Source of the DNA: Ruminiclostridium sp.
GTDB taxonomy: Bacteria; Bacillota; Clostridia; Oscillospirales; Ruminococcaceae
Direction of reading: 5' to 3'
Assembly: GCA_016282095.1 (NCBI GenBank)
Contig: JAEEJW010000083.1
Span: 1 to 39,039 of the forward strand
DNA: 39,039 bases
The notes under the pieces were generated by a model, which was given only the letters and a program-made list of their open reading frames with translations, was not told where the DNA came from and made no database searches. This document shows, one piece after another, positions 8,671-36,102 of this stretch (position 1 is the first letter of the stretch; every line of letters begins with the position of its first letter). The position numbers and the translations under genes are program-made.

Positions 8671-8711
8671 TATTTAAGTATCTCAAATAAATATACCGGA
8701 GGATAAATTCT

Positions 8712-9917
8712 ATGAATCATGTAAAAAAAGAATGCGTTGCTATGCTGCTTGCGGGCGGTCAGGGCAGCAGACTGTACGCGCTGACCCAGAATATGGCAAA
8801 GCCTGCCGTTCCTTACGGCGGTAAGTACAGGATCATCGATTTCCCGCTGTCAAACTGCGTAAATTCGGGAATAGATACCGTCGGCGTTCTTACACAGTAT
8901 CAGCCGCTGGTGCTCAACGAGTACATCGGCAACGGCCACCCGTGGGGACTCGACCGCGTTCACGGCGGAGTTCATGTTCTGCCGCCCTATGAGACAGCTT
9001 CCGGAAAGTCGTGGTACACCGGTACTGCAAACGCTATCTACCAGAACATCAGCTTCATCGACAGATACAGCCCCGAGTACGTTGCAGTTCTCTCCGGCGA
9101 CCACATCTATAAGATGGACTACGCGAAGATGCTGGACTTCCACAAGAAGAAAAAGGCTGAGGCTACTATCGCAGTACTTGAGGTTCCGTGGGAAGAAGCT
9201 TCCCGCTTCGGCATCATGACCGCCGACGAGGACGGTACGATCACGGAGTTCGCGGAGAAGCCGAAAGAGCCGAAATCCAACCTCGCTTCCATGGGCGTTT
9301 ACATCTTCACATGGGCTACCCTTAAACGCCACCTCATTGCCAATGAGAACGACGAGGGCGCGACCAAGGACTTCGGAAAGAACATCATACCCGCTATGCT
9401 CGACGAAGGCAGCAAGCTCGTTGCTTACCACTTTGACGCTTACTGGAAGGATGTCGGAACTATCGACAGCCTCTGGGAAGCAAATATGGACTGCCTCGAC
9501 CCGAACGTACCGCTTGACCTCTATGATCCCAAGTGGAAGATATATTCGAGAAATCCCGTAATGCCTCCGCACTACGCAGGCCCGAACAGCAAGATCGAAA
9601 ACTCCATGGTAGCTGAAGGCTGCGACATCGAAGGCGAAACAGACTTCTCGATGCTGTTTGACGGCGTTGTGATCGAAGAAGGCGCTACGGTGCGATACAG
9701 CATCATCATGCCGAATACAGTAGTAAAGAAGGGCGCTGTCATCGAATATTCGATCGTCGGTGAGGAATGTGTGATCGGCGAAGGCGCTCATATCGGCGAA
9801 AGACCCGAAAATGTAGAAAACCGAGACGAATGGGGTGTCGCGGTAGTCGGAAACAAGATCAACATTTCCGCGAACCACGTTATCCCGCCCAAGGCTATGA
9901 TATCTCAGGATGAATGA
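8712..9917 (+). CDS. glgC: glucose-1-phosphate adenylyltransferase
   Basis: 401 aa; [42 protein letters not shown]. Confidence 0.96.
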
Positions 9918-9953
9918 GAAAACTTAATATGAACCGAAAGGAAAAATACAACA

Positions 9954-11078
9954 ATGGCTAATATGTCTAATGTACTCGGTCTTATCTTCGCCAATATGCA
10001 TGACATGACGGTGACCGACCTCACCAAGAACCGCGCTATGGCTTCGGTGCCGTTCGGCGCAAGATACAGACTCATCGACTTCCCGCTCTCGAATATGGTA
10101 AACTCCGGTATCTCGACAGTGGGCATCGTAACAAAATCCAACTATCAGTCCCTGCTCGACCATGTCGGCTCCGGCGATGAATGGGATCTCTCCCGCAAGA
10201 ACGGCGGTCTGCACTTCCTCCCTCCCTACTCCAACGAGATCACGGGGCTTTACAGAGGCAGACTTGAAGCACTCGTAGGTGTCAAGAGCTTCATTTCCAA
10301 GTCCGACGCAGACTATGTTGTAATGTCCGACTGCGACTGCATCGCCAACCTCGATTTCAAGAAGCTCGTTGATTACCACGAGGAAAAGGGCGGCGATATA
10401 ACCGTAGTTTACGGCAAGAAGGAATTCACTCCCGAACAGACTAAAATGAGGACTATCCTCAAGGTGGACGACAACAACGAAGTTTATGATGTTCTTGTAC
10501 GTCCCGAGCTCACAGGCACACTTGACGCCAGCATGAACATATTCGTTATGTCGAAGGATTTCGTCCTCGAAATAATCAACAGCGCTGCAAGCCGCAACCT
10601 GTACAGCTTCGAGGTAGATGTGCTCCAGCACCGTCTCAAGGAATTCAAGGTCATCGGTTATGAGTTCACCGGCTATTATGCACAGATAGACGGCATACGC
10701 GCTTACTATCAGGCAAATATGGAGCTGATGAACAGAGACAACCGCAAGGCTCTCTTCAACTTTGACAACCCGATCTATACAAAGGTGCGTGACGAAGCTC
10801 CCGCAAAGTACGGTCTTGACGCCGCAGTAAAGAACAGCATGATCGCTGACGGCTGCATCGTTGAGGGTACAGTTGAAAACTCGGTTCTGTTCAGAGGCGT
10901 AAAGATCGGTAAGGGCGCCGTAGTCAAGAACTGCATACTCATGCAGGATACCGAAGTCGGTGACAAGTGCGAGCTCAATTATGTGATCTCCGACAAGAAC
11001 GTTACTATCGGAAATTACAGAAGCATCGGCGGCACCATCGACTATCCCGTATTTGTGAATAAGGGTTCGACAGTTTAA
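9954..11078 (+). CDS. glgD: glucose-1-phosphate adenylyltransferase regulatory-type subunit GlgD
   Basis: 374 aa; GlgC-like but with NVLGLIFANMHDMTVTDLTKNRAMASVPFGARYRLIDFPLSN; immediately downstream of glgC. Confidence 0.93.
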   Translation: MANMSNVLGLIFANMHDMTVTDLTKNRAMASVPFGARYRLIDFPLSNMVNSGISTVGIVTKSNYQSLLDHVGSGDEWDLSRKNGGLHFLPPYSNEITGLYRGRLEALVGVKSFISKSDADYVVMSDCDCIANLDFKKLVDYHEEKGGDITVVYGKKEFTPEQTKMRTILKVDDNNEVYDVLVRPELTGTLDASMNIFVMSKDFVLEIINSAASRNLYSFEVDVLQHRLKEFKVIGYEFTGYYAQIDGIRAYYQANMELMNRDNRKALFNFDNPIYTKVRDEAPAKYGLDAAVKNSMIADGCIVEGTVENSVLFRGVKIGKGAVVKNCILMQDTEVGDKCELNYVISDKNVTIGNYRSIGGTIDYPVFVNKGSTV

Positions 11079-19695: not shown

Positions 19696-21423
19696 TTACT
19701 CATTGCCTGCGGATCCGTAATATCTGAATCCGAGCATCGTAATGTCGTCGAACTGCGGTGCCTCACCGACAAATGTATCCACCGAGGCCTTCAGAGCCCG
19801 TAGCACATCTTTCTGCGGAGCATCGTATTCCACGCTGTTCAGTGCTTCGAGCATACGGTCGGTGCCGTAGAGTTCGTTATGAGCGTCCGTAGCTTCGGCA
19901 ACACCGTCGGTGTAGACAAAGAGACTGTCGCCGGGGTGAAGCTCGAACTCGTGCTCTCTGAACCTGATCCCCTCCATAGTCGCCACCGCGGGCGAGTGAC
20001 GGTACTCCACAAGCTCATATTTCCCGCCGCTGCGGCGGATCACAGGGTGCTCGTGGCCTGCGTTGGCTGCCATACCCTTACCTGTGGAAATTTCAAGTAT
20101 CCCGAGCCATACGGTCACGAAAAGTTCCGCCTTGTTGCCTTCGCAGAGCTGTTCGTTGGCCTGCATCAGCACCTTGGCAGGAGACAGTTCTCCGAGCTGT
20201 GCGTGGTTCTTTATAAGCGTCTTTGCGATAACCATGAAAAGCGCTGCCGGAACACCCTTGCCCGAAACATCCGCCATAACCAGAGCGAGGTGATCATCGT
20301 CTATGAGGAAGAAGTCATAGAAGTCGCCGCCTACTTCCTTTGCAGGCGTCATGGTAGCAAATATGTCAAATTCCTTCCTGCCGGGGAAGGGCGGGAATAT
20401 GGACGGCAGCATATCTGCCTGGATCTGTGTGGCTACATTGAGCTCCGCGCCTATACGTTCCTTTTCCGCTGTGATCTTTGTTATATTCTCGATATAGTCC
20501 TTTATGTCGATCTCCATGCGCAGGAGGCTTTCACTCAGGAGCTGTATCTCATCACGAGTCTTTATCTTTCCGAGCTTGTCGGAAATCTCCGCGTTGTGAC
20601 CGACAAATTTCTCTGCCTCTGCGGCAGCTACGATGATAGGCTTTATTATCGCCTGTACGATAGCGAAAGCGCCGATAGCCAGAAGTACTGCCATTATGAT
20701 GCCCGATACGATAAGCACTCTTACAACGAATTCGGTAATATCGCTCTCAAGAGTGAGCATCGGTATCTCTACATTTATGAAAGCAACTGCGGCGCCGCCG
20801 TAAGAGACAGGATACGAAGCGGTAAGAATATAACCGAACTGATAGTTTGTGATAATCTTGCGCTCAAAGGGCTGGCCTGTTCTCGCGGCTTCCTCGATAT
20901 CCTTCCTGTAATCGGGATATACGGGACTGCGGTCACCTATGGCGAATTGCAGTGACGGCTCATAATAGCTGTCCATTATGTAGACAATGGGCTTCCATTC
21001 CTTCGCCTCGGCTTTTTCGGGAGTGTAGGAAGTCAGCTCCTCAATATCGCACCAGCTCACGAAGATATCGTTCGCACCCATGCTGCGGCGCAGTTTGTCG
21101 ATATACTCCCATATCTCACGGTACCGGTCAGACTCCATGACCGTATCAAGTTCGGACTTGCTGATCTCGCCCGCGTCGAATTTCCTTGCAAGCTCCGCAT
21201 AATCGGTAAGCTCCTGCCGCGTGAAATATCCCTCCGCCACATGAGCAGTCTGATAAGCTACGGTATTGTAATGATCCGTTATGGATTTGGTGTAGGTATC
21301 CAAACCTACAATTATTGCTGCGACTGTTATGGCAATGATTATCAGTACAAATCCGATGATGAATTTCGGTGCAAGTCCGAATTTTATCTTTCGTGACGTA
21401 TTCCGAGCATTATTTTCTTCCAT
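19696..21423 (-). CDS. SpoIIE/RsbU-type PP2C serine phosphatase with N-terminal membrane sensor
   Basis: 575 aa; two hydrophobic segments flanking an extracytoplasmic region; phosphatase domain IQADMLPSIFPPFPGRKEFDIFATMTPAKEVGGDFYDFFLIDDDHLALVMADVSGKGVPAALFM. Confidence 0.92.
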   Translation of the reverse strand: MEENNARNTSRKIKFGLAPKFIIGFVLIIIAITVAAIIVGLDTYTKSITDHYNTVAYQTAHVAEGYFTRQELTDYAELARKFDAGEISKSELDTVMESDRYREIWEYIDKLRRSMGANDIFVSWCDIEELTSYTPEKAEAKEWKPIVYIMDSYYEPSLQFAIGDRSPVYPDYRKDIEEAARTGQPFERKIITNYQFGYILTASYPVSYGGAAVAFINVEIPMLTLESDITEFVVRVLIVSGIIMAVLLAIGAFAIVQAIIKPIIVAAAEAEKFVGHNAEISDKLGKIKTRDEIQLLSESLLRMEIDIKDYIENITKITAEKERIGAELNVATQIQADMLPSIFPPFPGRKEFDIFATMTPAKEVGGDFYDFFLIDDDHLALVMADVSGKGVPAALFMVIAKTLIKNHAQLGELSPAKVLMQANEQLCEGNKAELFVTVWLGILEISTGKGMAANAGHEHPVIRRSGGKYELVEYRHSPAVATMEGIRFREHEFELHPGDSLFVYTDGVAEATDAHNELYGTDRMLEALNSVEYDAPQKDVLRALKASVDTFVGEAPQFDDITMLGFRYYGSAGNE

Positions 21424-23000
21424 TGATCCTCAGGTACCTCCTTGGGGCAGATGTGCTTGGCTTTTCCGTGAGAGCGGTTCTGTTCCGGACCGGAAAGCCG
21501 TTCGAATCTTTCATATTCCTCCGGGCTGCAAAGTATCAGATCGGGGCGGGCTATCTGTCCTGCTTCCCGCAGCTCCTTATAGTCCGGGCTGTTAAGCATG
21601 AGCGAGCGGTCGAGAAGTTCCGCCGCCTCTTCGTCGGACACGGATGTGCCTTCCGGCACCGCCATTACCGAGAAATATTTTCCGGGCAGGTTTTCCAGCA
21701 CTGCGCCGATGCAGTATTTTTCCGCTGCGATCCCGTTTTCGCGAAGTCCGTAGACAGCCTGTTCAAGCTGACGGGAATCTATTTTCTCTCCCGCAATGTT
21801 GAGCACCTGCCCCTTCCGGAACATGAACTCGATCACCGGACTTTTTCCGATGAAGCCGTTCACTTTTATAACATCACCCATACGGTATCTGTACAGACCG
21901 GAGAAGTTGGTTATCAGCGGTTCGTAGAGCTCTCCGACCTTCAGCTCATGGGGCTGGAACGTCTCGCCGTCTTCTGCCGGGTAGGGCAGGAATTCAAAGA
22001 AACCTGTGCGCAGCACCATAACGTAGCTGTATTCATTCAGGCGCGGCGGTATCCCGATAAGGCTCTCCGAGCTGCAATAGCAGTAATACTGCTTCGGTAT
22101 GTCTCCGACATATTCCGACAAGGCAGCATCCTCTGTGAGATAGTACTTGTTGCCTATGCCGTTGAGCAGCTCCAGATGCTCCCACAGCCTGCGGGCTATG
22201 TTTTTGAAGCCCTTGCCGCACTCGTTTTCTATCTTTTTCAGCCGGGACTCGGGTACATTCAGGGAAAGCAGGTATTCACGGGTACCTTCCGGCACCGAAA
22301 GTCCCTCCGGGACTCTGTGCGCCCGCATATCGGCGACTAAACTCTGCCAGTTCTCCTTTATATATCCGAAGAAATTCAGCGTCTCATACAGGAAAGTGGA
22401 TTCCAGCACCTGTAATTCCTCACAGGCCAGCGCCGCATAAGCCTTGGCATAGATCATATCCTTCGCTTCGCAGGGTATAAAGAACAGGTCCTTGCCGCCG
22501 ACGTATCTGTCTGTCTCCATGAGACCGGCTTCATACAGATATTTGTAGAACATTTCCGATATGAGGTAAACATTCCTGTCTGCGTAAGCGGGATATGTGC
22601 GATAGGAACTGAGCATAAGACGCTTTCCCTCGAACGGGCTCAGGAACAGCTTTTTCGGATCCTCCGTCAGTGTTCCTTCCTTAGCAAGCTCCAGATCGGA
22701 TTTTGGCAGATATTTCGGCACGCCCGTGGTGCCTGAAGTGGAGCAGAATTTGTCCACATCGTAGCCCGTGAGCACGTTCTTCTCGCCGTTCATCATGCGC
22801 TCAACATATTCTTTTATAGCGTCATACCCGATAATCGGGACCCGACGCTTGTATTCTTCAACACTGTCTATATCAGCAAAGCCATACTTTCTGCCGTATT
22901 CGGTCTCCCGGCTGTCGGCGAGTATGGTCATCAGGTTTTCACGGTTGACATCATCGGCATGCACGCAGAGTTCCATGAGTTCGCCGGTTATTTTCTCCAT
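21384..23000 (-). CDS. GH3-family (auxin-responsive-promoter/acyl-acid amido synthetase-like) adenylating enzyme
   Basis: 538 aa; EYGRKYGFADIDSVEEYKRRVPIIGYDAIKEYVERMMNGEKNVLTGYDVDKFCSTSGTTGVPKYLP; YRYRMGDVIKVNGF. Confidence 0.88.
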   Translation of the reverse strand: MEKITGELMELCVHADDVNRENLMTILADSRETEYGRKYGFADIDSVEEYKRRVPIIGYDAIKEYVERMMNGEKNVLTGYDVDKFCSTSGTTGVPKYLPKSDLELAKEGTLTEDPKKLFLSPFEGKRLMLSSYRTYPAYADRNVYLISEMFYKYLYEAGLMETDRYVGGKDLFFIPCEAKDMIYAKAYAALACEELQVLESTFLYETLNFFGYIKENWQSLVADMRAHRVPEGLSVPEGTREYLLSLNVPESRLKKIENECGKGFKNIARRLWEHLELLNGIGNKYYLTEDAALSEYVGDIPKQYYCYCSSESLIGIPPRLNEYSYVMVLRTGFFEFLPYPAEDGETFQPHELKVGELYEPLITNFSGLYRYRMGDVIKVNGFIGKSPVIEFMFRKGQVLNIAGEKIDSRQLEQAVYGLRENGIAAEKYCIGAVLENLPGKYFSVMAVPEGTSVSDEEAAELLDRSLMLNSPDYKELREAGQIARPDLILCSPEEYERFERLSGPEQNRSHGKAKHICPKEVPEDQWKKIMLGIRHER

Positions 23001-23001
23001 A

Positions 23002-24774
23002 TCATTTTCCTTTCTTTTCAGTCGGCTTGCTGAACGGGAACAGTATCGTTATCAGATTCATGCCGAATATATATTTATGTGTGGTCGTATCTGCCATTTT
23101 ATGTATCAGGTTTATGCCCATGAAAAACTCGTCGTCCTCTTCCCGGGCTTTATCGCTGAACGGGTCGTAGTTCCTTCCGGCGCATTTTATCCGCACGCCT
23201 GTGCTTCCGTCGAGCGCGAAGGCACGGATATCTATGCTTCCGATGTCCGGAGTCTTTTCTATTATGACGTTCAGCAGTTCCTCTATCGCAAGGCCGAGCT
23301 TCATCGTCAGCTTCATATCCATCTGATTGGCGGAGCAGAAGTCCTTGAGTTTTTCCGCAGCATCGCAGACTTCATTCATATCAGCGGCTATGGAAAAATC
23401 AAGTATCTTATTCTCGGCCTCAAGGCGGTCATCCAGAAGAAGCACCGCCGACAGCGGCCTGTCGGTCCTGCGGCTCTGTGCCGCGCGGACAAATAACAAA
23501 ACAACTATAACGGCCGCGGAAGCCAGCGCCGACAGCGGCAGGAACAGCCACAATTCGGCTCCGGAAGGCGCAAGTATCAGCGCTGCTGCAACAGGAAGCA
23601 GGCAGCACCTCGCGCCGGAAGCGATATTCGCTTCGGCTATGAGGCCTATCGAGTTAAAATGTTTCTCCCAGATACAGCAGAGTACCGACAATATCACGTT
23701 GACTCCAAGGCATATCATCGGAACGAGCAGATCGCTGCCTACTCCGAAAAATGTGGCAACAGGCTGGTTGAGCAGGGATATCAGCACGGCGTACCCTACT
23801 GACAACAGAAGACCGATACGAACTTCCAGTGCTGTCAGTATGCGTATGGCTCCGTTCTCCCTTGCCGTGCTGAGAGCACTTATCATCGGAGCGCCCGCTC
23901 TCGGTACTCCGGTAATTATCATAAGCGACAGTTCGGAAAAAGTGTTCAGGACCGCCCAGACGGCAGCTCCATTTTCCCCAAGAGCCGCAAGTATTATCAT
24001 ATTCAATGCCAGCAGCTTCACCGCGTCAAAAAGGTTCCCAAGCGCGGCGGGCGAACCGTATCTTATCACTTCGCCGAAACGTTTTATATCCGGCCTGAAA
24101 CTGCCGATACGGTAATTTGACTCTCCGGAGCCCAGCGCCGCAAAACCGTAAACAGTCGCCGCGACCGCCGACAGGACGCTTGCTGCTGAAGCGCCGTAAA
24201 GCCCGAAGTCAAACACAAACAGGAACAGTATGTCAAACAGTATATCTGTCGTCACCATTATGATGACGGAAACGGATATGGCACGGGTCTTGCCCTCGAT
24301 CTGAAGATAACTGAATGGCAGGTACATCATCACCGAGGCTCCGGTGCCTATGAATGTCACGATGCAGTAGGAATACACCTGCTCCGTGAGAACCCCGCCT
24401 CCGGAAAGGATCTCCGACAGCGGACGGCAGAAAATGATTCCGAGTACAGTAAACAAGACCGATACCGCAGCACTCAAAGCAAACGCGCCGCGGTAATAGT
24501 CCTGTGACTTTATCATATTCTCCCTGCCCGCTTCCCGCGCGGAACAAACACTTGCTCCCCCGGCAATGAGCGAACCGACCGTACATAGTATCAGATACAC
24601 CGGCATACTGAGGTTCACTGCGGCAAGCGCGCCGCCGCCCAGTCTCTGCGATACGAATATGCTGTCGATCAGCGTATTGATCGTGGCACCGAGAACCGAG
24701 AACATCACCGGGAACAGGGTCAGCAGATATTTCGTTTTCAGCAGACGGTTATCCTGCTTTAAACCGGTATCCAT
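23002..24774 (-). CDS. MATE-family transporter fused to a C-terminal RsbW/SpoIIAB-like HATPase domain
   Basis: 590 aa; N-terminal MATE-like membrane part (LPVMFSVLGATINTLIDSIFVSQRLGGGALAAVNLSMPVYL); C-terminal LGLAIEELLNVIIEKTPDIGSIDIRAFALDGSTGVRIKCAGRNYDPFSD...FFMGINLIHKMADTTTHKYIFGMNLITILFPF, at about 23020-23420. Confidence 0.88.
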   Translation of the reverse strand: MDTGLKQDNRLLKTKYLLTLFPVMFSVLGATINTLIDSIFVSQRLGGGALAAVNLSMPVYLILCTVGSLIAGGASVCSAREAGRENMIKSQDYYRGAFALSAAVSVLFTVLGIIFCRPLSEILSGGGVLTEQVYSYCIVTFIGTGASVMMYLPFSYLQIEGKTRAISVSVIIMVTTDILFDILFLFVFDFGLYGASAASVLSAVAATVYGFAALGSGESNYRIGSFRPDIKRFGEVIRYGSPAALGNLFDAVKLLALNMIILAALGENGAAVWAVLNTFSELSLMIITGVPRAGAPMISALSTARENGAIRILTALEVRIGLLLSVGYAVLISLLNQPVATFFGVGSDLLVPMICLGVNVILSVLCCIWEKHFNSIGLIAEANIASGARCCLLPVAAALILAPSGAELWLFLPLSALASAAVIVVLLFVRAAQSRRTDRPLSAVLLLDDRLEAENKILDFSIAADMNEVCDAAEKLKDFCSANQMDMKLTMKLGLAIEELLNVIIEKTPDIGSIDIRAFALDGSTGVRIKCAGRNYDPFSDKAREEDDEFFMGINLIHKMADTTTHKYIFGMNLITILFPFSKPTEKKGK

Positions 24775-25070
24775 TATTTAATGTTCAGCAGATCAACAAA
24801 TCCTGTTACATCAAATATTTCCATGATCGCCTCGTTTGCGCCGGTCACGGTCATATCGCCCTGTTTGTTCATCATCTTCTGTGCCGAGAGGAGCACGCGA
24901 AGTCCCGCAGAAGATATGTACTCAAGTCCGGAGATATCGAAGATCAGCGACTTTACTCCCTCGGCGGAGCTCTTCACTTCAGCCTCAAGCTGGGGGGATG
25001 TGGTCGTATCAAGTCTGCCCTCAAGCGCGAGAGTGAGTGTTGAACCTTCCGTTTTCTTTGTGATGTTCAT
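24774..25070 (-). CDS. STAS-domain anti-anti-sigma factor-like protein (RsbV/SpoIIAA type)
   Basis: 98 aa; GRLDTTTSPQLEAEV...LIFDISGLEYISSAGLRVLLSAQK with conserved serine. Confidence 0.93.
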   Translation of the reverse strand: MNITKKTEGSTLTLALEGRLDTTTSPQLEAEVKSSAEGVKSLIFDISGLEYISSAGLRVLLSAQKMMNKQGDMTVTGANEAIMEIFDVTGFVDLLNIK

Positions 25071-25158: not shown

Positions 25159-25425
25159 TCATTTTACTGTCTTACCGGGCTTGATATCGAGATTGCAGGT
25201 CCTGCATTTTATTCTTCCGCCGGCAGCATCGAAATAGACAGTATGCTTCGAAGCGAAGGCGGTACCGGGGCAGAGCTGCTCCTTAAGCCATTCTATATGC
25301 TCCATGATGCCGCTCATGCTGCCGGCCGCTGAACTTATATTTTCATTACCGAGCTCGTAGCCGCCCGTTACAACTCTGAGATCTTTTTTGTCTATCATTA
25401 CGCTTTTCTCGTCCGAATCGGTCAT
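25159..25425 (-). CDS. Small GG-motif, Cys/His-motif protein (paralog 3)
   Basis: 88 aa; DLRVVTGG and EWLKEQLCPGTAFASKHTVYFDAAGGRIKCRTCNL; shares C-X8-H-X12-C-X2-C with two neighbouring paralogs. Confidence 0.8.
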   Translation of the reverse strand: MTDSDEKSVMIDKKDLRVVTGGYELGNENISSAAGSMSGIMEHIEWLKEQLCPGTAFASKHTVYFDAAGGRIKCRTCNLDIKPGKTVK

Positions 25426-25450
25426 AGTGCTTTCTCCTTATGATTGTCTT

Positions 25451-25702
25451 TCACTTTTTTGTCCCGGTATCCGAACCCGCCTTGACAAAATAGGAGCAGT
25501 TGCAGCACCGCATAATGCCTGCGGACGTATCGAGATACATGATATGCTTTCCTTGGAAATTCAGTCCGGGACATGGTTTATCGCTCAGCTTGTCAATAAA
25601 CTCTATAACTCCGCTGTTCTGTATCTGATCGCTTCCTCCGTTCACGGACTCCAGAGCACCGATGCCGAGTTCAACATTGACATAATCTCTTGTTTTCATC
25701 AT
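25451..25702 (-). CDS. Small GG-motif, Cys/His-motif protein (paralog 2)
   Basis: 83 aa; ALESVNGG and FIDKLSDKPCPGLNFQGKHIMYLDTSAGIMRCCNC; same motif spacing. Confidence 0.8.
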   Translation of the reverse strand: MMKTRDYVNVELGIGALESVNGGSDQIQNSGVIEFIDKLSDKPCPGLNFQGKHIMYLDTSAGIMRCCNCSYFVKAGSDTGTKK

Positions 25703-25742
25703 AGTAACATCCCCCTATCTGCAAGAACGCTGTCCGTGCTCT

Positions 25743-26027
25743 TCAGCTGATAGGATAATAAAGATTACAGGTTTTGCAGCCTATAGCACTTCCGCCATTT
25801 TTCACTACTATAATATGTTTGGCCGTCATCGCGGTTCCGGGACAAAGCTGTTCACTGAGCCATTTAATAATAGTTGAACTTTTTTCATGCACGTTTCTGT
25901 CTGTGTCGTTATTTGTCTGCGATCCGTCTCCCCCGGAATGGGGACCTTTTTCGCCGTTACCGCCTGCCACAGCCCGCAGGCTTTCATACCCGATCAGAAT
26001 GTTTTCATTTTTCTCTTCTGTACTCAT
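25743..26027 (-). CDS. Small GG-motif, Cys/His-motif protein (paralog 1)
   Basis: 94 aa; SLRAVAGG and KWLSEQLCPGTAMTAKHIIVVKNGGSAIGCKTCNL; same motif spacing; downstream of strong minus-strand promoters. Confidence 0.8.
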   Translation of the reverse strand: MSTEEKNENILIGYESLRAVAGGNGEKGPHSGGDGSQTNNDTDRNVHEKSSTIIKWLSEQLCPGTAMTAKHIIVVKNGGSAIGCKTCNLYYPIS

Positions 26028-26080: not shown

Positions 26081-26109
26081 ATTATACCTGTAAGCACCGG
26101 CTTTGTCAA
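26081..26109 (-). promoter_or_regulatory. Consensus sigma-70 promoter for the small-peptide operon
   Basis: On the minus strand: TTGACA (26109-26104), 17-nt spacer, TATAAT (26086-26081); about 55 nt upstream of ATG 26027. Confidence 0.75.
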
Positions 26110-26565: not shown

Positions 26566-27222
26566 ATGAAAGCAAGAAAGTTTGTAGCAGTATTAGCAGC
26601 AGCAATGACAATGATGAGCGTAGGCGCCTTCGCAGCAAGCGCAGAGAGCACCGCTCCCGCAAGCCTGATAGCAACGGTAGAAGCAGAATCCGATTCGTAC
26701 ATCATCGAGGGCGACGATTTCAGAGCAGCTTACAGCGAAACAGGTGAAAACACAAAGTCGTATGTAACATTCAAAGAGCTCGGCAGCTATGAACTCCAGT
26801 ATAACTTCAGACTCAACAGCGGCATCACAAAGACATACACAGCTTTTTCGCCGAAGATGAAGGGAATCACGGCGTACATCCCGATGCAGGATATGCTCGA
26901 CAAGCTTCACATCACAGCCGCAGATGTAAACGAGATCGTGATAAACGGACCTTCCTTCAGCAACGTAGAAAGAATTTCCTTCCGTCTTGATATTGCGACA
27001 CCGGTAACAAAGACCACAGCGACGCCCCAGAACGTAACGACGACAACGACAGTCAGCTACAACGGCGACATCATCAGCCCCTCCACTGATGTACAGCAGC
27101 CCGCTTCCGGCGAGGAGAACCCCTCCACAGGCGTTGCCGACGTTACACTGCCGCTCGCAGCGGCAGCTGTATGCGGAACTATCGCACTGATAGCGATCAC
27201 GACCCGCAGACGCACCAAGTAA
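26566..27222 (+). CDS. Secreted, putatively sortase-anchored surface protein (NPSTG motif)
   Basis: 218 aa; N-terminal signal peptide MKARKFVAVLAAAMTMMSVGAFAASA; C-terminal EENPSTGVADVTLPLAAAAVCGTIALIAITTRRRTK. Confidence 0.82.
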   Translation: MKARKFVAVLAAAMTMMSVGAFAASAESTAPASLIATVEAESDSYIIEGDDFRAAYSETGENTKSYVTFKELGSYELQYNFRLNSGITKTYTAFSPKMKGITAYIPMQDMLDKLHITAADVNEIVINGPSFSNVERISFRLDIATPVTKTTATPQNVTTTTTVSYNGDIISPSTDVQQPASGEENPSTGVADVTLPLAAAAVCGTIALIAITTRRRTK

Positions 27223-27297: not shown

Positions 27298-29001
27298 TCA
27301 TTTCTGTCCGCTGCTGAAGTCCACTTCCCTGTCGCATATATCGAGGACTGCCGGACGGTGCGTCACTATAATGACCGTCTTGTCCGTCAGCTCACGAAGA
27401 TTATGGAGCAGGCGCTTTTCCGTCGCTTCATCGAGCGCACTGGTAGCTTCGTCCAGCATCATTATCGGCGCGTCCGAGAAGATGGCGCGCGCGATGGCGA
27501 TACGCTGCATCTGCCCTTCCGAAAGTCCTGTTCCACGCTCGCCGAGTACGGTATCTATGCCGTTGTCCAGCTCGGATATGAAACTGTCGGCGCAGGCAAT
27601 TTTCAGCGCTTCGTTTATCTTTTCGTCATTGTGGGACTGTGTTCTGTCCGCGAAGCTCACCACATCACGCACTGTGCCGCTCATCAGCTTGTTGCCCTGC
27701 GGTACATAAGCGAACAGCCTGTGCCATTTCGGTGACAGGGGCTCCGAGCTGCCGTCGGTTTCCGTGATGAACCGCTCGCCGCTGTCCGGTCTGTACACTC
27801 CCATCAGAAGCATCAGAGCCGTGGATTTGCCGCAGCCGGAATGCCCTGTGAATGCCACATATTCTCCCTTTTTTATCTCCACATTCAACCCGTGGACCGC
27901 AATCGGCATATTGCGCTTTGTAAGGCTCTCAACTTTGTCGGACGCGGGATAGTAGGTGTAGGACACATCCTGCAATCCGATGCTTTTCAGCCTGTCACGG
28001 TAAAAATCATGCACGATCTCCTTGTCGAGCGGCGTTTCGGTAAGATCGTCATCGAAGCTCTCTATCTCCATAAGACGCTCGGCACTTGCCAACATGGCGT
28101 ACCAGCGCGGCAGATAGCCGGTAATATTCGCAAAGGGCGCCTGTATCTGCGTAATGAGCTGTGTTATAGCCGTCAGCATACCGTAGGTCAGCGTGCCGTT
28201 CAGTATCCCGTAGCCGCAGTAGATAACGCCGAACAGATACATACCGTTCATTGCTCCGCCAAATCCGAAGCTGCAGAAATTTGAAAATCTGTTCTTCTTC
28301 ATGCGGGCGGCTTTGTGAGCATCGGCTTTTTCGTGGGTCTCGGCATCGGTCTCTCCCTCCGCAGCGAAGGCCCGTATCACGGTAAGACTGTTTATACGCT
28401 CCTGTAAGAATATGCGCAGTGCGCCGTCCTTTTCCTGTACCTGCTTATGCAGAAGTTTCATATTTTTGCGGAAACCGAATGTCATTATGCCGAGCACCGC
28501 CCCGAGCGGTATCATTATCAGAGCGAACCGCATATCGAGTACCATTATCATGATAAGCGCGGACAGCATCTTGACAGCCATTCCTACAAATCCGGGTATT
28601 ATGTCTGTAACGCTGTTGGCCACCACCATCGTATCGCTGGTCAGACGGTTCAGCCATTCGCCGGAGTGCATCGCGCTGACACGACCGAAATCCTTGCGGA
28701 GAATATTGTTCATCAGCCGTTCTTTGAAGATATTTTCAAAATTCGCCCTTGTCAGCTCCGCCAGCCAGCGTATGACGGCGCTCAGTGTAAGCTGTGTCAG
28801 GACCAGCGCGATTATAAGCACAGTGTTCAGCCAGAACCCGCCGCTGTTGTTTTCCACCGCGCTGTCTACTATCCCGCGGAGAAAAAGAGCATACAAAACA
28901 CCGCTCGCGCCGTTCAATGCCTGAACGACAGTCAGCGCGAGTATCTGTCCTTTCTTTTTTCCGGGAACAGCCCAGAGCCACTTTGATGCGTTTTTCTTCA
29001 T
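27298..29001 (-). CDS. ABC transporter, exporter type (fused transmembrane and ATPase domains), no C39 peptidase domain
   Basis: 567 aa; Walker A GHSGCGKSTALMLL, signature LSEGQMQRIAIARAI, Walker B IMMLDEATSALDE. Confidence 0.94.
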   Translation of the reverse strand: MKKNASKWLWAVPGKKKGQILALTVVQALNGASGVLYALFLRGIVDSAVENNSGGFWLNTVLIIALVLTQLTLSAVIRWLAELTRANFENIFKERLMNNILRKDFGRVSAMHSGEWLNRLTSDTMVVANSVTDIIPGFVGMAVKMLSALIMIMVLDMRFALIMIPLGAVLGIMTFGFRKNMKLLHKQVQEKDGALRIFLQERINSLTVIRAFAAEGETDAETHEKADAHKAARMKKNRFSNFCSFGFGGAMNGMYLFGVIYCGYGILNGTLTYGMLTAITQLITQIQAPFANITGYLPRWYAMLASAERLMEIESFDDDLTETPLDKEIVHDFYRDRLKSIGLQDVSYTYYPASDKVESLTKRNMPIAVHGLNVEIKKGEYVAFTGHSGCGKSTALMLLMGVYRPDSGERFITETDGSSEPLSPKWHRLFAYVPQGNKLMSGTVRDVVSFADRTQSHNDEKINEALKIACADSFISELDNGIDTVLGERGTGLSEGQMQRIAIARAIFSDAPIMMLDEATSALDEATEKRLLHNLRELTDKTVIIVTHRPAVLDICDREVDFSSGQK

Positions 29002-29826: not shown

Positions 29827-31059
29827 TCATTCCTTCTTCTGCCGTATACTGTCAGCACAGTCCCGCAGCTCCCTCTCGGACACGGAGCTGGTAATGTTGT
29901 TTGCCTTGAGCTGCTTCTTGTTTTCATACATCAGCTTGTCGGCATCGGCGTAGAGCTCATCATAATCGTATTCACCGCTGCCGTAGGCAAGTCCGCAGGC
30001 CATGGAGCAGAACAAAGTTTTGTCTTCATCGTTCAGCCTGTTGAGCGCCGCCTGCCATTTCATACGTATCTGTTCGGCTTCACCGACCGACACGTTCGCA
30101 GCTATCATTACATACTCGTCGCCGCCCATACGGAAGCCCATTACATTTTCGGAAACTACCGCCGAGATGCTTCTGGCAGCCTTGATTATCAGTGCATCAC
30201 CATATTCATGACCGTAAGTGTCATTTATGTGCTTGAGATTGTTCACATCAAAATTATAAACAGCGATAGAAGCGGGGCTGCCGAAAGATATAGTCTTAAG
30301 CATCATATACTTGCCCTTGTTGTAGAGCCCTGTCAGTTTGTCATGCTCACTGTCGTAGACTATTCTGTCACGTAGTATGCTGTTTTCTATGAACAGACTC
30401 AGCACATTGTGCACTGCCGCTATCAGCGGTTCGTATATTCCGGTGGGAGCTGTGCGTCTTACCAGCACGACACATCTGTGGCCCTGTATTACCGAGTTGA
30501 GTACGCAGAACAATCCGTCCGCGTAGGTGCCGCGCTTCATATCGAAATATCGGCTGTATTCCTGGGGCGAGACATTCCCTGTCCTCACGAGATTGCTCTC
30601 ATACCGACTTTTCGTCACGCCGTTTTCCCTTTCCATATACATAATGGATTCTTCAGCACCACAGTACTCGTTTAGCCCCAGAAGAAATGCATCATAGGGC
30701 ATGGACAGCTTATTCATTATTCCGGTCTGGAATCCGGACATATCGGCGATGCTCTTGGAATACGAAGCAACTTCCTTGACGAGAAGGGCATACTCGCTTT
30801 CATCGAACAGGCGGTAGCATCTGTATTTCCTGCCGTCTTCCGTTATAACGGAAGACTTCACGTTGAAGTAGAGCCTGTTCGCCTTGTCGAAGAATTCCTG
30901 TTCATCGAAATCGCCGGCTTTTTTTATTTTTTTCAGCACAATATCGACCGGGAAGGCGAATTTCTCGCTTTGGTAAAGCAATTCACCGGCTTCATCGAGG
31001 ATAAGGATATTGCTTGCTTCTGCTTTAAGGAATCCGGTCAGGATCGGATCTATATCCAT
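29827..31059 (-). CDS. GGDEF-domain protein (putative diguanylate cyclase)
   Basis: 410 aa; DKLTGLYNKGKYMMLK ... FRMGGDEYVMIAANVSVGEAEQIRMKWQAAL; N-terminal region of unknown sensor type. Confidence 0.88.
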   Translation of the reverse strand: MDIDPILTGFLKAEASNILILDEAGELLYQSEKFAFPVDIVLKKIKKAGDFDEQEFFDKANRLYFNVKSSVITEDGRKYRCYRLFDESEYALLVKEVASYSKSIADMSGFQTGIMNKLSMPYDAFLLGLNEYCGAEESIMYMERENGVTKSRYESNLVRTGNVSPQEYSRYFDMKRGTYADGLFCVLNSVIQGHRCVVLVRRTAPTGIYEPLIAAVHNVLSLFIENSILRDRIVYDSEHDKLTGLYNKGKYMMLKTISFGSPASIAVYNFDVNNLKHINDTYGHEYGDALIIKAARSISAVVSENVMGFRMGGDEYVMIAANVSVGEAEQIRMKWQAALNRLNDEDKTLFCSMACGLAYGSGEYDYDELYADADKLMYENKKQLKANNITSSVSERELRDCADSIRQKKE

Positions 31060-31071
31060 ATATTTTATCCT

Positions 31072-33102
31072 TTATTCATATTTCTTTACAAGATCAGACA
31101 TAGCTCCCTCAAAAAGCGACTGACCGGCAGCGTCATAAAGCCTGTACATATCGCTGTCAAAGCTTCCGAGCACGGCAAGGAACGTATTCGCGGGAAGCCG
31201 TGCGTAGTGCTGTCCGTCACCTATCATACCGAGAACGCCTGACGATACGATGAAGTATATGTCACTTTTTTCAGGTATCACCATTCTGCCGCTCAGATCC
31301 ATGAGTCCGAGCTTTTGGTTCTGTCTGCCGGTAAGGAAATAGGGCTTTCCTTCCGCGCGATAGCCGCCGAACTCATATCTCGGACACAGATGTCTCTTTC
31401 CGAACTCCGCGTTTGCGTTGGAAATGAGTCTGTCCGCCGATACGGAGAAGATGACCTCTGATGTCATGACATTCTTCAGTACAGCCTGTTCATCTCCGAA
31501 CTCGTTTTCCTCGCTGCTCAGTGAATATATGACATCATCGAATATATGTATGCCGTAAGGCGCCTGACTGCCGTAGTGCTGCTTATAATTGAACCAGTAT
31601 ATCACTTTCAGGCTGTCGTCCAGAAGCAGGCACTTGTCATATTCCTCGGTCGCCTCGTCCCTCTCCTTTATGAGAGATATATAAGTCTTGCCGAGCACCG
31701 TGAACGCGCCGTAGCAGGATACGCTCCTGCCGTCCGGGTTATGGATACGCACCACGCCGTCGGTGAAGCCGCCGCCTGTTCTCAGCTTTCCGGCACCCTT
31801 TCTTTCATAGCTGCCGTCCGGGTGCTTCTCATAGCAGAACACATTCGTTATATTGTTCGCACAGCTTACCGCGCCGCTCTCATCGGCTGTCTCCGGAGAA
31901 TAGGCGCAGATATAGAGCCTGCCGCCCGCCTCTACCAGATCGGGAAGGTGACCGATATCGTATCTGCCGAGGGCTATTACAGTACGGTCGCTGCCGTCGA
32001 TAAGCTCGAATCTGCCGGATCCGGTACCGCCCGGGTTATCGGCACTTTCCGAGATGTCAGAAAATTTCAGCAGGAACCAGCCGTCCAGGCTCTTTGCGCC
32101 GGAGACCGGTATCGCCCTGTATCTGATGCCGTTGCCGGCAGGGTATATCCTACCGGTGCCGCGGTTGAAGATGCTCCGGTATATATCCCTTTCCGAGATG
32201 CTGCGCAGCACCTCGGCGGCTAGCTTGTCATTATAGTAGAAGTATTCTACGTAATTGCCGCTGGGGTCGCCGTCATATTTAGGGGCAAAGACGTCTTCGA
32301 TCACGCAGGTGCCGCTTTCGCAGTCAACTATGTCCTGGGCAGCGGTCTTTATGTCCTCGGAAACGGCATTGTACCTCTCGCGATTCGTCATTTTGTTATA
32401 TTCGTCCGGGTCGGTGTACAGGCAGTATTTTTCGCCTATGACGCGCATCGGGAATATATCCGCGATACCTGTGATATTCTCCTGATACTGCGCGGCATAA
32501 ACAACGCCGCCGTTGCGGGAAAGCAGAATCACGACACCGGAAGTGGCATAGGGCTGCGTAATGCCTGTGAATGCCTGTAATATATTCCTGTATTCGGACT
32601 GAGCTACCATGCTGTTGCTCCTGAACAGTATGAAGCTCAGGAAACGTGTTCCGTTGCTGAAGCAGTCGCCGTTCTTCGGGATAACTCCATTGGCGAGATT
32701 CGCGCCGCACCAGTTCATATAGCAGACTGTCTCGGCACTGTTCACGCCCCTCACAAGGAACGGACGCAGTTCTCTGCCCGGAGCGCTGTCATCTATGGCA
32801 ATGGCATAGTTTCCCCGGAATTCGCTGATCCATGTGATACGCTTGGTTTCCGCAAGCTGTCTGTGTTCTGCGATCCATTTCTTATAGAAAGGCTCGCCGG
32901 TATTCGCTGCGTCAGGCGAAAACAACTTTTCCTCGCCCTTCTCCTCATCTATATGCGTGCCGCATTTAAGGCAGAAAAGGGCGCCGTTAAGCACACGGGC
33001 TCCGCACTTCGGACAGGATCTTATGATATCCTGCTTTGCTCCGCAGAAAGAACAGAATGAGGAGTTGGCCGGGAGCTCTTTGTGACAGTTACGACAAAGC
33101 AT
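31072..33102 (-). CDS. Double-zinc-ribbon protein of unknown function (676 aa)
   Basis: N-terminal CRNCHKELPANSSFCSFCGAKQDIIRSCPKCGARVLNGALFCLKCG; remainder not recognised. Confidence 0.75.
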   Translation of the reverse strand: MLCRNCHKELPANSSFCSFCGAKQDIIRSCPKCGARVLNGALFCLKCGTHIDEEKGEEKLFSPDAANTGEPFYKKWIAEHRQLAETKRITWISEFRGNYAIAIDDSAPGRELRPFLVRGVNSAETVCYMNWCGANLANGVIPKNGDCFSNGTRFLSFILFRSNSMVAQSEYRNILQAFTGITQPYATSGVVILLSRNGGVVYAAQYQENITGIADIFPMRVIGEKYCLYTDPDEYNKMTNRERYNAVSEDIKTAAQDIVDCESGTCVIEDVFAPKYDGDPSGNYVEYFYYNDKLAAEVLRSISERDIYRSIFNRGTGRIYPAGNGIRYRAIPVSGAKSLDGWFLLKFSDISESADNPGGTGSGRFELIDGSDRTVIALGRYDIGHLPDLVEAGGRLYICAYSPETADESGAVSCANNITNVFCYEKHPDGSYERKGAGKLRTGGGFTDGVVRIHNPDGRSVSCYGAFTVLGKTYISLIKERDEATEEYDKCLLLDDSLKVIYWFNYKQHYGSQAPYGIHIFDDVIYSLSSEENEFGDEQAVLKNVMTSEVIFSVSADRLISNANAEFGKRHLCPRYEFGGYRAEGKPYFLTGRQNQKLGLMDLSGRMVIPEKSDIYFIVSSGVLGMIGDGQHYARLPANTFLAVLGSFDSDMYRLYDAAGQSLFEGAMSDLVKKYE

Positions 33103-33123: not shown

Positions 33124-36102
33124 TCATATCTTTCTTGCGAACTCGGCACTGCTGCTGCCGCCGGCTCCGGCAGCCGTGAGCTTCTTCAGCTCTCCGACCG
33201 TCATATCCGGCTCAGCGCCGTGCTTCAGCAAAGCCTCCGCAGCTGCCTTGAACAGCGCCGCGAAGCGTTCCATGCTGGTGTCGTTGTACCGGCTCGCCGC
33301 GTAGTCTATCATCAGCTGCAATCCGTCCTCGCCGTCGAGTATCTCCATATCGAGTATGGTCTGCGAAGCCGCCTGATTCTGCCTGATATCCACAGTCTCT
33401 ATGCCGAAGCTCTTTATCTCATTCATATCGCGTATATCCTGCTGATAGAGAACGTAGGCGGATTCGGTGGCTCCGACCTGCGAAATTGTATCAACATAAG
33501 GGTAAACGCTGTGCTCAATACCGCCGCGCACCTGCTCGCGGACACTGGCAAACAGGGCGGTGACAGTCATGTCGTCCCTGAACCTGAAACCTATGGGCAG
33601 GTCACGGAACAGCAGTCCGACAGTCGTGAGCATCTGCATATCCTCACGGCCGTTGTATATCCACGACAGCCGTATATCGTCCGCGTTGTTGTAGACGGAC
33701 ACGGCAAGACCCGCGGCTGTGATGAAGAACTCGTTTCTCGATATACGCTGCGTCATCTCCAGCTCCGCCAGGACAGCGCGCGATATACCGAGGCCGCATT
33801 TCAGCTCGCCGGTCTCGTTTTCGCGGGATTCGTTATCGGGTGTCGGGTAGGTGCTCCACTCAACGTTCCCGTATTTTTCCTCAAAGTATCTGCGGCTTTC
33901 ACCGTAGAATTCGGTGCCTGCCGCTTCCTCACGCTCGCTCAGCATGAGGTAATAGTTGTCCGGCACAAGAGCCGCGCCTGTCAGCGCCCTTATGACGCTG
34001 CCGATGAACACCTTGAACGATGTTCCGTCGAACATGGTGTGATGTACGTCAAAGAACACATATCCGCAGGTCTCCGTTTCGAACACGCGGCATCTGTGCA
34101 GAAGCTCGCCTGTTATCCTGAACGGCTGCACCAGCGTATCCTTGACCGTATCCAGCTCCCAGTCGTGTATCTGCTCGACCGTGATGTTCTTCATAAGCTC
34201 CGGAGCGTATCTCTGCACGATATCGCCGTCGCCGTTGAACTCAAGCACCGTCAGCAGAGCCGGATGATTGAGTATCGCCGACTGCATGGCCGCCGCAGCT
34301 TTTTCGGGACTTATAGCGGTCTTGTCGAACCTGAACATAGTAAACAGATTGTACATCGTCGATTTCGGCGTATAGAGCTGATAATCGACCATATAGAGCT
34401 GTTCCGGCGTAAGCGGGTGAGGCATACTCATCGAACGGGCGTTCTTTACCTCGGGCGAGTCGCTGTCGGCAGCGCTGTGCAGCGCCTTGTACAGCTTCGC
34501 TATCCTCTGGGGGGTACGTCCGCGGAATATCTCCGAAGCATTGAGTCCCGGAAGTCCGCAGATAGCGATAACTCGTATGGAGCCGAGGGAATCTCCGCCC
34601 AGCTCATAGAAATCGTCCTTTGCGCCGACACGGCCTGTGCCGAGCACCGCAGCCATAGCTGCGCAGAGCTTTTCTTCAATGTCGTTCGCAGGGGCGATAT
34701 AGGTACGCCTCCTGTCCCCGGTCACCGGCAGCGGCAGAGCCTTCCTGTCCAGCTTGCCGTTGGGACGCAGCGGCACATGATCCACCTTTATGTAGTACGA
34801 CGGTATCATATAGTATGGCAGGTATTCGAGAAGTACTTCACGCAGCGGGGCGCTCTCGATCCTGATATTGTCTTTGTAATAAGCGCACAGGTATGTTTTT
34901 CCGCCGTCTTCCACACACCTTGCAGCCGCCCAGTCTATATGCAGCACCTCCATGAGCGCCGCCTCAACTTCGGCAGGCTCGATGCGGTTGCCGTTGATCT
35001 TTATCATATCGGTGCTGCGGCCGAGAAGTACCAGATCACCGTTTTCATCGACTCTTGCCAGATCCCCGGTATGGCACATACCGCCGATGAACGTCTTTTC
35101 AGTATCCTCCGGCAGTCCGATGTAGCCGCGGACGTACGGCGCCTCAAAGCACAGTTCTCCTGTCTCACCCTCGGGTACGGGATCACCTTCCTCGTCTATG
35201 AGGGAATATTTAACGCCCGGCTTCCCTATCGGGCAGTTCTTATAGGGCTTGTCTATCTCAAAAAGGCTAACTCCGAAGCCGCTTTCGCTCAGCGCATAGA
35301 CGTTTATGAGCCTTACGTCTTCGCGAAATACATTGTTCGCGGGCTCGGAGCCGACAAATACCGTCCGCAGGAACGGCCCGGCGCTGCCGCTCAGGGCGCG
35401 CACATAGGACGGTGTAAGGAAGGTCACGGATATCTGCTTCTCAATAAAGAAGTTCTGTAAAAGCACGGGATCCTTCAGCGTAGCGTAGGACACCACAAAT
35501 ATCCTGCTGCCCTTTGTATTCAGAGCAGCAAGCAGTGTTATGACCGAAGCGGCGAAATTGAGCGGCACGAGAAGCGCCAGTCTCTCGTCCTCGCCGAAGG
35601 GTACCTCGCCGTTCAGCTTTATCGAATCCACACACATATCAAGACTGCCGTATTCGTGCAGCACGCCCTTGGGTTTTCCCGAAGTGCCGGAAGTATATAT
35701 TGCATAAGCCGCGTCCCGGTCATCGGGCTCTGCGTGACCGCTCTTCGGGACGGTCTGCATTATCTCGTCCCAGACTGACGTGTTTATTACGGTCTTACAG
35801 CCGCAGTCCCGGCGGATATACTCCTTTCGCCCGGGAGCATAGTTATCCTCCACAAGAACGAAAGCCGCACCCGCGCGCCATACACCGAGCATAGCGACAA
35901 CAGGAAGTATGCCTCTCGGAAGATCTATCAGGACAAAATCCTCCCTGCCTATACCTTTAGCGCTGAGCCAGCCGTATATCCTTGATGTAAGGTCGTCAAG
36001 CTTCGAATATGTGACTCCCTGCGAATGTGCTTCGTCGAACAGTACTGCCGTATTACCGCAGTTCTGCGCATAACCGGCAAGTGTCTTTATGATCTGCGAC
36101 AT
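33124..36102 (-). CDS. Non-ribosomal peptide synthetase, adenylation-carrier-condensation (A-T-C)
   Basis: 992 aa; A domain AIYTSGTSGKPKGVLHE and GELCFEAPYVRGYIGLPEDTEKTF; carrier DDFYELGGDSLGSIRV; condensation FFDVHHTMFDGTSF (HHxxxDG); no thioesterase or reductase seen. Confidence 0.92.
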   Translation of the reverse strand: MSQIIKTLAGYAQNCGNTAVLFDEAHSQGVTYSKLDDLTSRIYGWLSAKGIGREDFVLIDLPRGILPVVAMLGVWRAGAAFVLVEDNYAPGRKEYIRRDCGCKTVINTSVWDEIMQTVPKSGHAEPDDRDAAYAIYTSGTSGKPKGVLHEYGSLDMCVDSIKLNGEVPFGEDERLALLVPLNFAASVITLLAALNTKGSRIFVVSYATLKDPVLLQNFFIEKQISVTFLTPSYVRALSGSAGPFLRTVFVGSEPANNVFREDVRLINVYALSESGFGVSLFEIDKPYKNCPIGKPGVKYSLIDEEGDPVPEGETGELCFEAPYVRGYIGLPEDTEKTFIGGMCHTGDLARVDENGDLVLLGRSTDMIKINGNRIEPAEVEAALMEVLHIDWAAARCVEDGGKTYLCAYYKDNIRIESAPLREVLLEYLPYYMIPSYYIKVDHVPLRPNGKLDRKALPLPVTGDRRRTYIAPANDIEEKLCAAMAAVLGTGRVGAKDDFYELGGDSLGSIRVIAICGLPGLNASEIFRGRTPQRIAKLYKALHSAADSDSPEVKNARSMSMPHPLTPEQLYMVDYQLYTPKSTMYNLFTMFRFDKTAISPEKAAAAMQSAILNHPALLTVLEFNGDGDIVQRYAPELMKNITVEQIHDWELDTVKDTLVQPFRITGELLHRCRVFETETCGYVFFDVHHTMFDGTSFKVFIGSVIRALTGAALVPDNYYLMLSEREEAAGTEFYGESRRYFEEKYGNVEWSTYPTPDNESRENETGELKCGLGISRAVLAELEMTQRISRNEFFITAAGLAVSVYNNADDIRLSWIYNGREDMQMLTTVGLLFRDLPIGFRFRDDMTVTALFASVREQVRGGIEHSVYPYVDTISQVGATESAYVLYQQDIRDMNEIKSFGIETVDIRQNQAASQTILDMEILDGEDGLQLMIDYAASRYNDTSMERFAALFKAAAEALLKHGAEPDMTVGELKKLTAAGAGGSSSAEFARKI

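Follow-up and report, generated by a model that had tools for sequence, protein, structure and literature searches.

Three paralogous double-glycine peptides with a putative zinc-ribbon-like core, encoded beside a partner-switching module in Ruminiclostridium sp.

Introduction

What do three small neighbouring genes encode when each product begins like the precursor of an exported peptide and ends in a pattern resembling a metal site? This question is raised by a 39,039-nucleotide stretch of a Ruminiclostridium sp. genome (hereafter the window), in which an initial annotation had described three paralogous small proteins sharing an LxxVxGG motif and a C-x8-H-x12-C-x2-C core. Double-glycine peptides are usually viewed as unmodified amphipathic bacteriocins, as pheromones or as precursors for enzyme-made cross-links. 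We consider it on balance probable that the trio are instead secreted peptides, cleaved from their leaders, that carry a zinc-ribbon-like core, leave the cell through an exporter encoded elsewhere and are expressed together with a partner-switching module.

Results

The trio are genuine paralogous genes

The three genes are read on the minus strand in the order peptide 1, 2 and 3 (Table 1), and their alignment (A1) confirmed the described paralogy. Peptides 2 and 3 share 26-36% identity with peptide 1. Fifteen alignment columns are invariant, including the L, V, G and G of LxxVxGG and the C, P, G, K, H, C and C of the core (CPG-x5-KH-x12-C-x2-C), in which the spacing C-x8-H-x12-C-x2-C is the same in all three peptides. 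Conservation is concentrated in leader and core. The linker between them varies in sequence and length, as had been noted, with 38, 20 and 29 residues separating Gly-Gly from the first Cys in peptides 1, 2 and 3, respectively. Shine-Dalgarno-like sequences precede the three ATGs (AAGGAGGT, AGGGGGA and AAGGAG), the genes of the trio are separated by 40 and 25 bp, and every pair shows identities of about 0.49-0.57, 0.53-0.68 and 0.32-0.33 at the first, second and third codon positions, respectively. The third positions are thus saturated and the first two conserved, which indicates a protein under constraint. Together with the ribosome-binding sites and short spacers, this codon-position pattern identifies the trio as genes and not chance frames.

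Table 1. Positions of the trio, its leaders and the associated features; loci with an L number lie outside the window
Feature	Position	Strand	Properties and evidence
Peptide 1 gene	25743..26027	minus	94 aa, Gly-Gly precursor, C62-x8-H71-x12-C84-x2-C87; ORF, alignment A1, SD, codon-position conservation
Peptide 1 leader, 23 aa	25959..26027	minus	I-12, L-7, V-4, G-2 G-1; fits LahT rule
Peptide 2 gene	25451..25702	minus	83 aa, C44-x8-H53-x12-C66-x2-C69; ORF, alignment A1, SD, codon-position conservation
Peptide 2 leader, 23 aa	25634..25702	minus	L-12, L-7, V-4, G-2 G-1; fits LahT rule
Peptide 3 gene	25159..25425	minus	88 aa, C52-x8-H61-x12-C74-x2-C77; ORF, alignment A1, SD, codon-position conservation
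Peptide 3 leader, 22 aa	25360..25425	minus	I-12, L-7, V-4, G-2 G-1; fits LahT rule
Candidate promoter TTGACA-17-TATAAT	26081..26109	minus	~50 bp upstream of peptide 1; 12/12 match to sigma-70 consensus, pattern match only
STAS anti-anti-sigma protein	24774..25070	minus	PF01740 E 1.9e-16; TIGR00377 over cut-off; next gene downstream of trio
MATE transporter with C-terminal HATPase (anti-sigma type)	23002..24774	minus	MatE E 1.9e-16; HATPase_c_2 weak, 15.1 bits, below cut-off
GH3-family acyl-adenylate enzyme	21384..23000	minus	GH3 E 1.4e-46
SpoIIE-type PP2C phosphatase with membrane sensor region	19696..21423	minus	SpoIIE E 2.6e-43
Small protein with AAGG/AAGE-like end	L027:12176-12394, L171:13736-13957, L175:9870-10142, L185:13360-13755, L061:10127-10345		

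The leaders fit the C39 recognition rule

The resemblance of the GG motif to a double-glycine cleavage site, proposed in the initial annotation, is well supported. Recognition by the LahT/PCAT protease has been defined experimentally as hydrophobic residues at -12, -7 and -4 followed by Gly-Gly, and cleavage is abolished by charged residues at -4 and -7 and by most substitutions at -12 (PMC6363468). All three trio peptides conform at positions -1, -2, -4, -7 and -12. As background we took 1,484 ORFs of 50-120 aa, drawn from the window together with 40 control regions. Only five contained the strict motif within their first 45 residues, and three of these five were the trio itself. Leaders of class II bacteriocins (TIGR01847) are 23 aa long, against 69 aa for Nif11 precursors in the same table (PMC2887384), so the 22-23 aa of the trio are in class II style and unlike Nif11 precursors. 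Searches of Pfam and NCBIfam found no Nif11-like leader domain (TIGR03798 / PF07862) in the trio at E <= 1, and no curated leader or bacteriocin model from either database matched.

The short leader raises the alternative that the trio are unmodified class-II-type bacteriocins, with their cysteines in disulfides and no metal site. Like class II bacteriocins (TIGR01847, PF10439; 23-aa leaders, PMC2887384), they combine a short LxxVxGG leader with a core of tens of residues, and the presence of several peptides per locus is typical. We nevertheless regard this alternative as very improbable, since three core cysteines in peptides 1 and 3 would leave one unpaired, the His is invariant and the C-H-C-C core resembles a metal site. 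Moreover, no class II bacteriocin model matched, and no immunity gene was recognised.

The core resembles a zinc ribbon and has one probable homologue

The four Cys/His ligands, arranged in two knuckles (C-x8-H and C-x2-C), are invariant in all three trio peptides. The initial annotation was correct in assigning no named family, as Pfam and NCBIfam returned only chance-level matches at E <= 1 (Aph-1, 0.15; DMSO_dmsB, 0.035). Zinc-finger models from the two databases did not match the window peptides, a PDB sequence search gave nothing below E 0.4, and tblastn of peptide 3 against phage and plasmid sequences gave no match. Searching 299 family genomes with a profile of the trio, a check that the annotation had proposed, identified one credible relative, in the genome G281 from another genus; its E value is 7e-5 against a single genome and about 0.02 once all 299 are taken into account. 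In this peptide (GIDELDVINGG...CPGCNTSYH...CPKCNKYYAW), a probable homologue of the trio as judged from sequence, the Gly-Gly leader, CPG and CxxC are retained and the first knuckle contains an additional Cys. The G281 genome also carries a C39 exporter, on another contig. Neither a match to a characterised cytosolic family nor a homologue with unconserved Cys/His positions emerged.

The G281 peptide scores just over the cut-off of the MJ0042 zinc-finger model (TIGR02098; 21.4 vs 20.9 bits) and has weak Pfam zinc-ribbon matches as well. Its CPGC..H..CPKC arrangement and the C..H..CxxC cores of the trio thus resemble MJ0042-type zinc fingers and zinc ribbons (TIGR02098, PF13719). The trio differ in having C-x8-H and not CxxC as their first knuckle, in matching no zinc-finger model and in being leader-bearing peptides.

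Further searches yielded no additional relatives. A profile of the trio plus the G281 peptide retrieved nothing credible from 396 genomes of the order, and none of 58 pattern matches from a scan of the genome's contigs based on alignment A1 was a relative. A degenerate DNA pattern for CPG-x5-KH..CxxC gave eight other matches in 398 family genomes, which we judged to be chance from the matched DNA. We dismissed weak matches at L005, L006, L010-L014, L016, L018 and L237 as fortuitous, as they fall in reading frames that are unrelated or longer.

AlphaFold modelling of peptide 3 from three sequences gave a structure of low confidence (mean pLDDT 50). It contains a short leader helix, a helix at residues 34-49 and a hairpin at 63-66/71-74 (pLDDT about 60), with the second helix preceding the first Cys and the hairpin lying between the His and CxxC. 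Many zinc-ribbon, BIR and ribosomal zinc proteins were among the Foldseek matches in the PDB, none of them significant (E >= 0.4). We infer with moderate confidence that the trio bind zinc. The annotation had offered zinc binding or modification of the four residues. The former is supported indirectly, by the zinc-finger score of the G281 peptide and the zinc-ribbon-like cores of other Gly-Gly peptides in the genus, and the latter finds no support at this locus, as no maturase was recognised in the window.

Competent C39 exporters are encoded elsewhere in the genome

No C39 domain or protease was found in the window or on its contig, and Pfam detected no C39 domain in the ABC transporter at 27298-29001 (567 aa). 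Following the suggestion to look for C39 peptidases and radical SAM partners beyond the window, we found four C39 exporters (711-743 aa, E 1.5e-32 to 2.9e-38), encoded on contigs C79, C65, C141 and C10. In all four, the catalytic motifs could be read directly and are intact: Gln/Cys (Q..ECGAA), the His of NHF and the Asp of NDP. The exporter on contig C65 exceeds the NHLM_micro_ABC1 cut-off (913 vs 853 bits) and the gene after it that of NHLM_micro_ABC2 (713 vs 709 bits), so by sequence this is a true NHLM/PCAT system. An exporter is usually, but not obligatorily, encoded beside its precursor. With four C39 exporters elsewhere in the genome, a suitable machine is present in trans, which the trio would use.

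The C65 cluster itself encodes two Gly-Gly peptides with C-x7-H..CxxC cores (CPKSPTKYH..CIYC and CPNNYDDGH..CKHC). Directly after a Gly-Gly C-H-CxxC peptide in this cluster follows a radical SAM/SPASM protein (L026:1444-2949), a pairing paralleled in L162 and L166. The suggested radical SAM partner thus exists in this genome, beside another peptide. It raises the alternative that the trio are Gly-Gly RiPP precursors whose Cys, Ser or Thr residues are cross-linked or otherwise modified by such a maturase acting in trans, and do not bind metal. Nif11 precursors encoded apart from their modifying enzyme are indeed known (PMC2887384). Against this, the window holds no recognised maturase, the fixed C-x8-H-x12-C-x2-C spacing and conserved His suit a metal site and are unneeded for thioether or sactionine chemistry, and the G281 homologue scores as a zinc finger. 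We therefore consider modification in trans unlikely.

Gly-Gly peptides with similar cores recur across the genus

We surveyed 48 loci of the genus, 47 of them around C39 matches and one, the Nif11 array L030, found via its leader. The leader rule gathered 117 distinct Gly-Gly cores, a few of which are false. The pattern C-x(6-9)-H-x(8-45)-CxxC occurred in 18 of these, compared with 1.7 on average, and never more than 6, when the cores were shuffled 500 times; five of the 18 came from L030 and are not independent of the search, leaving 13. Examples include CPKSNSGKHNFVFQ..CKYCG and CNNSSSGKHHFINE..CEYC (L166). Further genus peptides combine a Nif11-like leader with CPxCG..CxxCG cores, whose Pfam matches to zinc ribbons are weak and below threshold.

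The trio resemble these cores in pattern, and we do not claim homology: an HMM of the 18 cores does not single out the trio, and hhalign gave a probability of 3-14%. L030 itself encodes eight tandem Nif11-leader peptides (7121-10834, minus), most with C-H-CxxC, and its contig ends in an NHLM HlyD-like protein. Gly-Gly peptides with CPxCG..CxxCG-like cores also lie beside a C39 exporter at L158:1356-3010 and L163:1341-2998 (minus), some of them with a 21-aa leader without a Nif11 domain.

The trio precede a partner-switching module

Downstream of the trio, in the same direction, lie genes for STAS, MATE-HATPase, GH3 and SpoIIE proteins (Table 1). A pattern scan found no minus-strand terminator-like site in the 88-bp gap between peptide 3 and the STAS gene, and the trio are probably on one transcript with this module. 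MATE relatives with 61-79% identity and enough upstream sequence have no such peptides beside them. This rules out the peptides as a fixed part of the MATE/GH3 module and suggests that the trio are a local addition. We retained the association because partner-switch genes are enriched at C39 loci: STAS matches occur near 22 of 48 C39 loci and in four of 40 control regions of the same genus, and any STAS, SpoIIE or HATPase match in 25 of 48 and five of 40, respectively (p about 1e-4, a rough value given the partial orthology among the loci, the shortness of some of them and the position of some hit-bearing controls on C39-carrying contigs).

The arrangement of a Gly-Gly peptide with STAS immediately behind it, both on one strand, is found again at L027, L186, L188, L155 and L173, with a distance of 22 bp at the last two. 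At the C141 locus of the same genome, a Gly-Gly peptide with a 27-aa leader is followed 49 bp on by a STAS match and then by a C39 transporter, and L186 and L188 are its orthologues. One gene run (L061:4324-19961, minus) unites an NHLM transporter, Nif11/Gly-Gly Cys-rich peptides, radical SAM, an ECF sigma factor, STAS, MATE-HATPase, GH3 and SpoIIE. L183 and L193 likewise have MATE-HATPase proteins next to C39 systems. Considering the recurring peptide-STAS order and these neighbours, the order of peptides, STAS and MATE-HATPase in the window is unlikely to be accidental and may reflect a functional link.

The adjoining signalling genes could also be taken to mean that the trio are cytosolic zinc-ribbon proteins, for example regulators acting with the STAS/MATE-HATPase module, in which LxxVxGG is internal and uncleaved. 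Zinc ribbons are common in cytosolic proteins and the window lacks a C39 exporter. Yet the C39 rule holds at every position in three divergent paralogues, in which a conserved leader and core flank a variable linker. The same genome and genus offer C39-linked Gly-Gly peptides whose cores are similar, as well as the peptide-then-STAS order, and the peptides are absent beside the sampled MATE relatives, unlike a core regulator. A cytosolic role is, in our view, distinctly improbable.

Several other features of these neighbourhoods were observed. The compact STAS/MATE-HATPase/GH3/SpoIIE module (21384-25070, minus) has relatives in several rumen Clostridia (L062-L082). In L073, the region immediately upstream of a MATE-HATPase relative encodes two small precursor-like proteins (279-683 and 806-1237, plus; DNLAEGIFTACGG.. 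and NDLAEGVFAASGS..) as well as an ABC-type transporter. Elsewhere in the window, genes for a single-module NRPS-like protein (33124-36102; AMP-binding, PP-binding, Condensation), a zinc-ribbon protein (31072-33102) and a GGDEF protein (29827-31059) run together on the minus strand, and in G321 (L058) a single contig carries this set together with SpoIIE, GH3, MATE-HATPase and STAS. The product of a divergent gene (26566-27222, plus) is a secreted protein that has no Pfam match and combines a signal-like segment at its N-terminus with an NPSTG motif; its hydrophobic tail and basic C-terminal end resemble a sortase-type anchor. At C39 loci, the gene just upstream of one for an ECF sigma factor encodes a small protein with an AAGG/AAGE-like end (Table 1), possibly a leader-bearing regulator of this factor.

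Discussion

We propose that the trio are precursors of small secreted peptides, each with a 22-23 aa class-II-style double-glycine leader. A C39 (PCAT) exporter encoded elsewhere would bind the leader through positions -12, -7 and -4 and cleave behind Gly-Gly, freeing a peptide of 60-71 aa. The calculated average masses of the unmodified cores are about 7,531, 6,562 and 7,175 Da for peptides 1, 2 and 3, respectively. In each released peptide, the variable linker would lead into a short helix and then a zinc-ribbon-like knuckle (C..H..C..C), most likely holding Zn2+. Given their shared direction and probable shared transcript with the STAS - MATE/HATPase - GH3 - SpoIIE module, production of the peptides is probably controlled by, or coordinated with, a partner-switching signal. 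Exported peptides of this kind usually serve competition or signalling, and our best guess is that the trio act as competitor-directed or signalling peptides.

The leader and exporter classes are known; what is new, as far as our searches show, is the core, together with the family and its regulatory setting. Among the closest parallels are Nif11-leader (N11P, TIGR03798 / PF07862) precursors exported via NHLM/PCAT, which occur in the same genus and share a double-glycine leader of the same type, tandem paralogues and variable linkers, and some of which carry C-H-CxxC cores beside C39 exporters, like the core pattern of the trio. The trio differ in their shorter leader without a Nif11 domain, their distance from an exporter and cores unmatched by profile. 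The LahT/LahA set of Lachnospiraceae C6A11, in which a sequence-tolerant C39 protease serves many cores, likewise depends on leader positions -12, -7, -4 and Gly-Gly, but LahA leaders are of the Nif11 type and encoded with LahT (PMC6363468), whereas the trio are unlinked to an exporter. In the library that we searched, no paper named Nif11 together with a zinc ribbon, or NHLP with anti-sigma.

More broadly, and as a tentative proposal that we hold short of an even chance, the trio may belong to an undescribed class of exported ruminococcal mini-proteins. These would combine a double-glycine leader with a zinc-stabilised ribbon core and be secreted unmodified by NHLM/PCAT, with STAS/SpoIIE partner switching governing their production; both the type of leader (short or Nif11) and the core would be swapped between loci. 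The cargo of the trio and of other Gly-Gly peptides in the genus looks like a ready-made metal-binding fold. If so, C39 exporters would release small metal-structured proteins needing no maturase, and such peptides would escape genome-mining rules that look for one. The recurrence of STAS, SpoIIE and HATPase near C39 loci further points to a rule, open to testing, for how ruminococci of the rumen and gut regulate peptide export.
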